IMG/VR virus record: IMGVR_UViG_3300045135_000392
Coordinates: 1-30,336 of that record
Length of the DNA: 30,336 bases
Reading direction: 5' to 3' (one strand)
From: a virus
A program made the position numbers and the translations under genes. Positions 3,654 to 12,380 of the stretch are shown here, piece by piece. The notes below the pieces were generated by a model that saw only the letters and a program-made list of their open reading frames with translations, made no database searches and was not told the DNA's origin. Each line of letters opens with the position of its first letter. Positions within the stretch are counted from its first letter, which is position 1.

Positions 3654-3676
3654 CCCCCCTCTCCCTCTCTCCCCCC
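3654..3676. repeat. Homopyrimidine mirror repeat
   Basis: A 23-nt stretch of only C and T that reads almost the same in both directions (21 of 23 positions), with six C at each end and CCC and CTCT blocks between. CTAGC lies on the left and GCTAGC on the right. Such a tract can form triplex (H-DNA), and its G-rich partner strand can stack G-tracts. It lies between the divergent candidate promoters. Confidence 0.6.
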
Positions 3677-3710
3677 ACGCTAGCACTTTCTAGGTACTAT
3701 CTGTCAATAT

Positions 3711-3725
3711 GTGACGTGGCGTCAC
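3711..3725. promoter_or_regulatory. Palindromic operator candidate, box 1
   Basis: GTGACGTGGCGTCAC is a perfect 6-bp inverted repeat (GTGACG/CGTCAC) with a 3-bp centre. Box 2 begins exactly 22 bp downstream, about two helical turns, so proteins on both boxes would face the same side. Confidence 0.6.
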
Positions 3726-3732
3726 TAGTATT

Positions 3733-3747
3733 GTGACGTAGCGTAAC
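3733..3747. promoter_or_regulatory. Palindromic operator candidate, box 2
   Basis: GTGACGTAGCGTAAC is an imperfect copy of box 1 with one mismatch between arms. It covers the -35 element of the rightward promoter candidate, so binding here would be expected to block RNA polymerase or to replace the -35 contact. Confidence 0.55.
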
Positions 3748-3761: not shown

Positions 3762-3779
3762 ATTGACTACTATAAAAGC

Positions 3780-3800: not shown

Positions 3801-3820
3801 TTCTGCCAGTTGACTCACCT

Positions 3821-4066
3821 CTATGTTCTCTCTGTTTCACTGCGGCCACCTCGCATGTCTTTGTTCATTGCACGAGACAAATACCATTCGCAAGAAGTTT
3901 CCTCTTGCCGTTTATAGCTAGGTATTTGTGACCTCCTCCAGTGTAAAGTTCGACCTTCTCCTTGTGGGGAAACAACTTGCGAATAGCAACCTGCCTTGCA
4001 GGATTTGTCTTCGTGCATGAAGTCGTCATTGCGAGGGTGGTCCTCGCTAAGAACAGGAGAACCTAG
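3821..4066 (+). ncRNA. Long rod-like structured leader RNA (candidate new cis-regulatory or small RNA)
   Basis: No convincing gene lies here, but the two halves pair with each other along their length. From outside in: 3821-3823 with 4064-4066, 3825-3830 with 4057-4062, 3832-3836 with 4052-4056, 3844-3845 with 4042-4043, 3846-3848 with 4038-4040, 3849-3854 with 4031-4036, 3855-3857 with 4027-4029, 3864-3867 with 4018-4021, 3869-3875 with 4011-4017, 3876-3882 with 4003-4009, 3886-3894 with 3976-3984, and 3897-3904 with 3966-3973. That is about 64 pairs, broken mainly by single-base bulges. A side hairpin CCTGC/GCAGG lies at 3990-4002. The ribosome site AGGAGA (4055-4060) of the next gene is fully paired. 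The 61-nt apex is mostly unpaired. The pairing is seen; the function is inferred. Confidence 0.7.
4031..4047 (+). other. Alternative local hairpin in the leader
   Basis: GCGAGG (4031-4036) and CCTCGC (4042-4047) form a 6-bp hairpin with loop GTGGT. The same GCGAGG also pairs with 3849-3854 in the long rod, so the two folds exclude each other. That is the usual arrangement of an RNA switch just upstream of a ribosome site. Confidence 0.5.
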
Positions 4067-4068
4067 AA

Positions 4069-4452
4069 ATGACTAAACTTGTTGAACTTAAACTACAGAC
4101 CATTCAGTATCACAACGGTGATAACATGGACTACTTAATGATTAGTATGGCGCGAGACGCCTGTTACACTAGCTACAACTCACTTACCTACAAGAAGAAA
4201 CAGATGGCAGATACCATCACTGACTTCGAGACTGCGGTAACAGAAGGACGCGACATGCGAGCCGAAGCTATCACTCGCAAGCTTGACAATATGGAGATCG
4301 AACTCGAACATCTTGCAGAACGACATGACGCTGATTGTCAGGTCTATGCAATCATCACAGATGGTCAAGCTTGGACACCAGAACGCAAGCAACGCAACGT
4401 CAAAGGCGCACTTGCTAAGAAAGTTGCAGAACTCAAGAAAAGGGTAGCGTAA
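4069..4452 (+). CDS. First early-region protein, unknown function (127 aa)
   Basis: Not recognised. Mostly helical. Residues 35-90 (YNSLTYKKKQMADTITDFETAV through AITRKLDNMEIELEHLAE) look like an antiparallel coiled coil, and the C-terminus is basic (ALAKKVAELKKRVA). ATG 4069 has AGGAGA 8 nt upstream, but that site is paired inside the long leader structure, so translation may be gated by RNA folding. The stop lies in a 7-bp hairpin. The first gene of an early phage transcript often encodes a host-takeover factor; here that is only a guess from position. Confidence 0.7.
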   Translation: MTKLVELKLQTIQYHNGDNMDYLMISMARDACYTSYNSLTYKKKQMADTITDFETAVTEGRDMRAEAITRKLDNMEIELEHLAERHDADCQVYAIITDGQAWTPERKQRNVKGALAKKVAELKKRVA

Positions 4453-4461
4453 CAGCTACCC
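4442..4461 (+). other. Hairpin over the stop of the first early gene
   Basis: GGGTAGC (4442-4448), 6-nt loop, GCTACCC (4455-4461): a perfect 7-bp stem that contains the TAA stop. It has no T-run after it, so it is more likely a 3'-end protecting or processing element than a rho-independent terminator. Confidence 0.5.
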
Positions 4462-4467
4462 AATATC

Positions 4468-4502: not shown

Positions 4503-4517
4503 GTGACGTAACGTAAC
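4503..4517. promoter_or_regulatory. Palindromic operator candidate, box 3
   Basis: GTGACGTAACGTAAC, the third copy of the GTGACG-N3-CGTMAC motif, ends 2 bp before the -35 of the second early promoter candidate. It differs from box 2 at one base (TAG to TAA in the centre). Confidence 0.55.
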
Positions 4518-8368: not shown

Positions 8369-8804
8369 TAAACTAGACATCTGGAACAAGCTGGCTGCTT
8401 CAGACCCCAAATATCTGAAGCAAGTCAGCTTTGGCAGTAGATCATTTACAGCCATTGATCCTCAGTACCAAGTCAGAATGATGACCGAACAGTTTGGACC
8501 AATTGGTTTGGGCTGGGGATGGTTCAATACAACTGAGGTAGTGTCTGTCAGCAACGGAGACAGTGCTGTACTAGCGCATGTAACTGTTTGGCATACAGAT
8601 AACCATCATTCTTTTGGGCCATTCACAGGCTGTCGTAAGTTCTTTGACGCAGCGAAGGGTCGTATGGCAGAAGATGCACCAAAGATGGCTATCACTGATG
8701 GTCTTACCAAAGCACTGTCGCACATTGGCTGTAATGCTGATGTCTTCTTGGGTGAGATGGATGGCAACAAGTATGCTGCTGATAGCGGCAAACCCAAGTG
8801 GTAG
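8361..8804 (+). CDS. Single-strand annealing recombinase (Rad52/Erf-like, 147 aa)
   Basis: FTAIDPQYQVRMMTEQFGPIGLGWGW at residues 30-55, then beta strands with FGPFTGCRKFF, and DAPKMAITDGLTKALSHIGCNADVFLG near the C-terminus. These are hallmark blocks of the phage Rad52/Sak/Erf-type annealing proteins, in which the AITDAL(T/S)KA-LS helix is typical. It should bind the strands made by the upstream exonuclease and anneal them. The compact 147-aa size fits a core domain without the C-terminal extension seen in larger members. The ribosome site AAAAAAGGAGAACAAC is strong. Confidence 0.8.
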   Translation: MSNKLDIWNKLAASDPKYLKQVSFGSRSFTAIDPQYQVRMMTEQFGPIGLGWGWFNTTEVVSVSNGDSAVLAHVTVWHTDNHHSFGPFTGCRKFFDAAKGRMAEDAPKMAITDGLTKALSHIGCNADVFLGEMDGNKYAADSGKPKW

Positions 8805-9118
8805 AAGAACGTGTAATAAAAGCTCAGAGGGTTAAAGAACTAATACCCTCTGAAGACTTAGCTCATGTCATTGAATTAGCTAAACAAAGAATGAGAGCTG
8901 AACAAAAATTTGTTAAAAGCAGAAAGGTGGTGGAAGAAAGAATAAATAGATGTCTGGTTGTCTTTGACCTTATGTACAATGGATCAACCTTAAAAAATGC
9001 AGGGGAGGCAATTGGTGCATCCCGTGAAAGAACAAGACAAATCGAAGCTAAGGTTTGTTTAAAAATTATGAAATGTTATAAAATTTACAAAAGGAGCCAG
9101 AAGCATGGCAGAATATGA
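8798..9118 (+). CDS. Sigma70 region-4-like regulator (106 aa)
   Basis: Residues 63-88 (LKNAGEAIGASRERTRQIEAKVCLKI) closely follow the sigma-70 region 4.2 pattern 'L..IG...G.SRER.RQIE.KA..K', which contacts the -35 element and the RNA polymerase flap. No regions 2 or 3 are present, and the first 55 residues are a charged helix. It could direct the host polymerase to phage promoters or act as an anti-sigma-like competitor. GTG 8798 overlaps the annealing gene stop and relies on coupling; an ATG at 8891 would remove part of the N-terminal helix only. Confidence 0.8.
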   Translation: MVEERVIKAQRVKELIPSEDLAHVIELAKQRMRAEQKFVKSRKVVEERINRCLVVFDLMYNGSTLKNAGEAIGASRERTRQIEAKVCLKIMKCYKIYKRSQKHGRI

Positions 9119-12144: not shown

Positions 12145-12356
12145 TAGTTTACCGCTTCTTCTTTTTTCTCTAATGAGTCAGAAAGCATCTTCATAAATCC
12201 TTCTCGACCAACTTGCAGTTGCGCTAAGTTAAACTGAGCGGATGCAATCTTCTGGTCTAAAGAACTAATATGATTTATGCAAACCTTTGACTCGTCTGAT
12301 AGTTCACTTTCTTTGTATTCAACGTCATCAATCACGACCTTTTTTTCTTCAGTCAT
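12144..12356 (-). CDS. Small DUF6447-like protein (70 aa)
   Basis: VVIDDVEYKESELSDESKVCINHISSLDQKIASAQFNLAQLQVGREGF is a layout I know from many cyanophage and marine phage small proteins ('I.G..Y....L.......L..I...D..I..L......L...R..Y'), annotated as a domain of unknown function (DUF6447, from memory). A short beta hairpin is followed by a coiled-coil helix. It lies between tail-fibre accessory genes and the lysis genes. Function unknown. Confidence 0.7.
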   Translation of the reverse strand: MTEEKKVVIDDVEYKESELSDESKVCINHISSLDQKIASAQFNLAQLQVGREGFMKMLSDSLEKKEEAVN

Positions 12357-12380
12357 TCCTGAACTCCTTCTAAAGTTAAA

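Follow-up and report, generated by a model that had tools for sequence, protein, structure and literature searches.

A rod-like structured element, most likely of the minus strand, upstream of the first early gene in marine phages, and the exchangeable slot that holds it

The window analysed here is a 30,336-nt viral contig of marine origin. It belongs to a podovirus, with a capsid that shares 53% identity with that of the pelagiphage EXVC031P Hodr and ~30% with those of the HTVC010P group. It carries a rod-like imperfect inverted repeat (3815-4072, ~250 nt), with ~70 bp in consecutive helices, immediately before its first early gene, gp1. Folds against shuffled sequences, covariation and strand tests point to the minus strand as the most likely structured strand, and we tentatively favour, at a little under an even chance, the reading that the rod is a structured non-coding RNA of ~250 nt lying opposite the leader of gp1. 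Sequence comparison shows that the slot in which it lies is exchangeable, close relatives having swapped either the whole module or the inner rod only.

A preliminary description of this DNA had claimed an RNA rod beyond chance, with two paired arms and a side hairpin at 3990-4002, of a shape for which it knew no named phage RNA family; the arms and the hairpin were both recovered in our fold. On the plus strand, 3821-4066 folds at -91.1 kcal/mol, where 200 dinucleotide-shuffled versions give -63.4 +/- 4.7 (z -5.9), the wider segment 3760-4075 is also better than its shuffled controls (z -4.7), and the rod region ranks first for structure in a 240-nt scan of the whole window. The minus strand of the rod folds better than the plus, with a z of -7.3. 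Searching Rfam with the rod gave no match, at the gathering threshold or at E<=1 to 3, in agreement with the earlier claim.

Homologues of gp1 were collected by a sequence search (34 viral loci) and by an alignment search (176 loci, 80 of these kept), and the rod was found directly upstream of gp1 in more than 100 marine phage contigs, where these stretches fold as rods despite often sharing only about half of their sequence. A query made from the core of the rod only (GTTCGCAAGG ... CCTTGC..ACT.CAAGC) matched 42 contigs, in 40 of which gp1 starts ~120-180 nt downstream of the match; the two exceptions are L155, which ends too early, and L129, in which the rod precedes a different type of gp1. 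L129 is a natural recombinant, in which a rod is joined to another gp1 family, so that rod and gp1 come apart. Cultured phages searched by DNA and by gp1 protein yielded no relatives, and sequenced prokaryote genomes a single related contig, binned as an archaeal MAG. The cultured pelagiphage Hodr does have a rod of unrelated sequence before its first early gene (12190-12376 of OQ414635; z -6.4/-6.8), leaning to the minus strand as in the window; in HTVC010P, HTVC034P and MEP301, a scan of the large gaps found no similar rods.

When 12 relatives of the window's rod were aligned as the minus strand, RNAalifold found 42 pairs, of which 22 show a double change that is compensated. When the structure of the window itself is used for the count, both sides change in 29 of 70 pairs (shuffles 17.8 +/- 2.5) and 72 cells are compensated (shuffles 30.7 +/- 4.5), while control structures slid along the alignment reach a maximum of 19 pairs and 35 cells. 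Among close relatives, which show ~50 distinct double changes, substitution at paired sites is half as fast as at unpaired sites. Since the homologues compensate well above both shuffles and slid controls, neither of the computable grounds for doubting the rod (shuffle energies similar to its own; no compensation) was found.

Read from its base, the rod would consist of a terminal helix holding the gp1 ribosome site, a helix of segments a and b (a:b), an internal loop, a middle stem, a three-way junction, a core helix and an apical domain. In the terminal helix an arm at 3825-3836 pairs with 4050-4062 and co-varies with the ribosome site in homologues. Segment a (3842-3857) pairs with segment b (GCGAGGGTGG, 4031-4040), and the internal loop beyond it is purine-rich as read on the minus strand. 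Segment b has a second possible partner in the neighbouring segment c (TCCTCGC, 4041-4047), giving a local hairpin (4031-4047) which competes with a:b; the preliminary description had overlooked this option. The side hairpin of the three-way junction (3990-4002) is seen in both fold and covariation, as is the core helix, TTCGCAA/TTGCGAA, between ATTCGCAAGAAGTTTCC (3886-3903) and GGGGAAACAACTTGCGAAT (3966-3984); its 5′ side is the best conserved part of the rod (in helix 7, pairing holds in 99.4% of cells and compensation is seen at 7 of 15 pairs). The apical domain comes in a short form (type 1) or a long form (type 2).

The preliminary description had assumed a plus-strand leader, and this assumption is weakened by wobble, loop and energy signatures. 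Three consensus pairs read as G-U wobbles on minus in 7 to 10 of the 12 sequences and as Watson-Crick pairs in others; on the plus strand the wobbles would be A-C. Where the folds of the two strands share a helix, isolated mismatches on the plus strand are A-C 45 times and G-T 5 times. The shuffle-corrected z-score is better on the minus strand in 34 of 37 divergent representatives, and the consensus fold is -44.8 for minus and -38.0 for plus. Unpaired bases on the minus strand (A 48, G 24, U 18, C 11%) resemble those of rRNA, 6S, RNase P and tmRNA controls (A 46, G 28, U 20, C 7). Against this must be weighed several cautions. In this phage, coding strands too have unpaired bases rich in A and fold better in the sense direction, so that base composition by itself tests the strand only weakly. 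New single mismatches in the helices of close relatives (G-T 38-40, A-C 45-46, others 74-77) show no wobble preference, which is unusual for an RNA helix, and their share of transitions equals that of unpaired sites. A conserved sigma-70-like promoter that could drive a minus-strand RNA was sought on the right side of the rod and not found, and no synonymous constraint that might mark one was seen near the gp1 start, although a promoter of a phage-specific type could still serve. Weighing these together, we consider it quite probable that the minus strand is the structured molecule, and hold less firmly that this molecule is RNA instead of DNA. A protein-coding reading of the minus strand was ruled out: most gaps are 1-2 nt long, and open stretches over the rod exceed those of shuffled sequence only a little in length.

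If the rod is a minus-strand RNA, a transcript of ~250 nt would cover it, folding as a long rod with a closed base, a side hairpin and an apical domain that can be exchanged. Because the 5′ end of such an RNA covers the gp1 ribosome site, it could act in cis as an antisense RNA on gp1 mRNA. Its main job, since close relatives swap both the tip and the whole module, may be that of a folded RNA acting in infection, either by binding to a partner from host or phage or by determining which related phages are compatible.

The strongest of the alternatives, which we nevertheless think unlikely, is that a plus-strand leader RNA from an early promoter folds as the rod, buries the ribosome site and locks gp1 translation, the lock being opened by RNase III cleavage or by b pairing with c and not with a. 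Burial itself, claimed earlier for AGGAGA at 4055-4060, is borne out: the gp1 site is paired with a partner more than 100 nt upstream in 36 of the 37 representatives, with a mean pairing of 0.95, compared with mostly 0.2-0.4 at the ribosome sites of the window's other early genes, and site and arm vary together across species (GGAG/CTCC, GGATAC/GTATCC, GAGGTAC/GTACCTC). Also consistent with such a lock are the a:b and b:c options, both retained in nearly all species, the b:c hairpin, where G-U appears by eye to be commoner than A-C on the plus strand, and a poly-T run 3′ of b:c in the L094-type group. Phage leaders of the lambda N and T4 gene e type work in this way, their pairing hiding a ribosome site which RNase III or an alternative promoter opens. 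The window's rod shares with them a fold-back before an early gene and a hidden site with co-varying pairing, but it is far longer, its strand signatures lean to the other strand, and the unpaired bases of its plus strand are 48% T and 11% G. In addition, most alternative modules of the same slot leave the ribosome site open, and for this reason control of gp1 translation cannot be the slot's shared role.

The suggestion of a replication element survives in a second, improbable alternative, in which the minus strand forms a hairpin of single-stranded DNA and serves as an origin, a primosome-assembly site or a priming site. Single-strand origins and primosome assembly sites, known from plasmids and single-stranded DNA phages, are long, imperfect, strand-specific hairpins in non-coding DNA that undergo module exchange, and origin-initiator cassettes typically exchange as modules; the rod, too, is a long, imperfect, non-coding hairpin swapped as a module, and its lean to the minus strand persists with DNA folding parameters (34 of 37). 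The lack of wobble preference in recent mismatches and of a conserved minus-strand promoter would fit such a hairpin, as would its intergenic site adjoining an ultraconserved tract. Early genes were searched, and included recombination genes (RecE/YqaJ, exonuclease/ERF-like, SSB-like and RusA-like) with no recognised replication initiator. However, DnaA boxes are absent near the rod, no known initiator or nicking protein adjoins it, a rolling-circle protein is absent among the families searched here, and both the conserved G-U positions and the A-rich loops suit RNA better than DNA. It is very improbable that the rod is a quasi-palindrome of little function, whose symmetry is maintained by template switching from one arm to the other during copying, as neutral-looking single mismatches alongside the many double changes might suggest, given its conserved mismatches and core motif, its three-way junction, its near-fixed position beside gp1 (40 of 42), its two maintained alternative pairings and the slower change of its paired sites.

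The minus-strand RNA that we favour must also be considered in its genomic setting, since the slot, with the early operon on one side and the divergent late operon on the other, holds either the rod or unrelated structured elements. It is marked by a 23-nt pyrimidine tract (CCCCCCTCTCCCTCTCTCCCCCC, 3654-3676, plus strand), upstream of the small terminase gene and identical in at least 100 viral contigs. Among the matches listed, 53 of 112 contigs with the tract have gp1, with the rod where examined, and most of the others hold different long sequences, several of them clearly structured, in at least four classes. In 18 representative pairs the flank is common and the slot content different (e.g. 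L108/L240, L092/L204, L007/L189 and L044/L200), and between the window and L036 the outer rod and gp1 are ~99% alike while the inner rods are unrelated. Three elements of a class other than the rod (L194, L204 and L267) carry the same core motif as the rod, and the strand lean of the other classes is mostly to the minus, with class X ambiguous. We entertain, with more doubt than conviction, the idea that a single slot of marine podoviruses, lying between the promoter-like site of the late operon and the first early gene, docks unrelated large minus-strand RNAs of ~200-700 nt, which would be swapped by recombination and, together with a fast-diverging partner protein, gp1, share a function.

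The alternative elements of class X (L258, L264, L204, L194, L267, L279), class Z (L189, L191, L199, L247, L270), class Y (L178, L278) and class V (L180, L281) are long, apparently non-coding and structured, and each class could be a separate new family; an Rfam search of these modules gave no match. The pyrimidine tract, possibly a packaging site or a G-quadruplex or triplex element, also occurs in L215, a 137-kb contig with otherwise different surroundings.

Between the tract and the rod lie a promoter-like TTGACA-N16-TGCTA directed towards the terminase genes (3681-3707, minus strand), conserved in most homologues, two operator-like palindromes (TGACGTnnCGTCA, 3712-3746) and a conserved TTGACA-like box (3763-3775), just 3′ of which the slot modules start. 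Following this box in rod phages, TACTATAA is probably an early -10; the TTGACA at the left edge was ruled out as a -35 of the early promoter, having no -10 at a fixed distance. A further operator-like palindrome (TGACGTAACGTAA, 4504-4516) lies downstream of gp1, and 8798-9115 encodes a protein of 106 aa, possibly a phage transcription factor, that contains the sigma-70 region 4 domain PF04545 of Pfam. A search for tRNA and tmRNA found none.

The gp1 gene (4069-4452) encodes a protein of 127 aa with no database family, predicted to fold as a helical hairpin (pLDDT 88), and fold comparison gave non-significant matches only, all of them generic coiled coils, with Rop and UvsY among them. At other slot modules the gp1 types differ. 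Two of these families (B and C) are clearly homologous (98.6%), and the window's gp1 has a weak link to that of L267 (62%) alone; it is suggestive that the other gp1 families are related, as one fast-diverging superfamily. Those of L258, L247, L178, L280 and Hodr have in common a DGxEI-like turn and a C-terminal G..Y.P motif. A GC-rich hairpin spanning the gp1 stop codon (4440-4462, GGGTGGCG TAA GCCACC type) is conserved in many homologues, accounts for the lower synonymous change at the end of gp1, and in the window resembles a terminator on the minus strand.

Large structured phage RNAs such as GOLLD and ROOL have been described, whose function is unknown (PMC12286853). Like them, the rod is a large, elaborate, conserved, phage-encoded fold, but GOLLD and ROOL are ornate, cage-forming RNAs of 600-800 nt or more found in tRNA islands, whereas the present element is a ~250-nt rod adjoining the first early gene, and covariance models of GOLLD, ROOL and OLE do not match it. 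It is similar to 6S RNA in shape and size, but is fixed beside gp1 and has no sequence similarity to it; the covariance model of 6S RNA (RF00013) found no match, and the earlier idea of a 6S-like decoy of RNA polymerase is without support. The pRNA of phi29 has paired ends, a three-way junction and a fast-evolving sequence, and is encoded near packaging functions. The rod is comparable in its phage origin, paired ends, three-way junction, fast-evolving sequence and nearness to packaging genes, but rod phages have a small terminase gene, the architecture and size differ, and the Rfam model of the pRNA gives no match. A literature search on the rod element found no paper. By kind, the rod belongs with the large structured phage RNAs; as far as these searches tell, what is new is the exchangeable slot, together with a rod whose tip is swapped.

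Phages have yielded few large structured RNAs, and what these do is not known; to these the marine metagenomes add a rod family of more than 100 members. Because the cultured pelagiphage Hodr has a rod upstream of its first early gene, testing at the bench is possible. Near-identical phages bearing different tips, or wholly different modules, amount to natural swap experiments and, if the alternative modules share a role, their comparison would reveal the features that matter.
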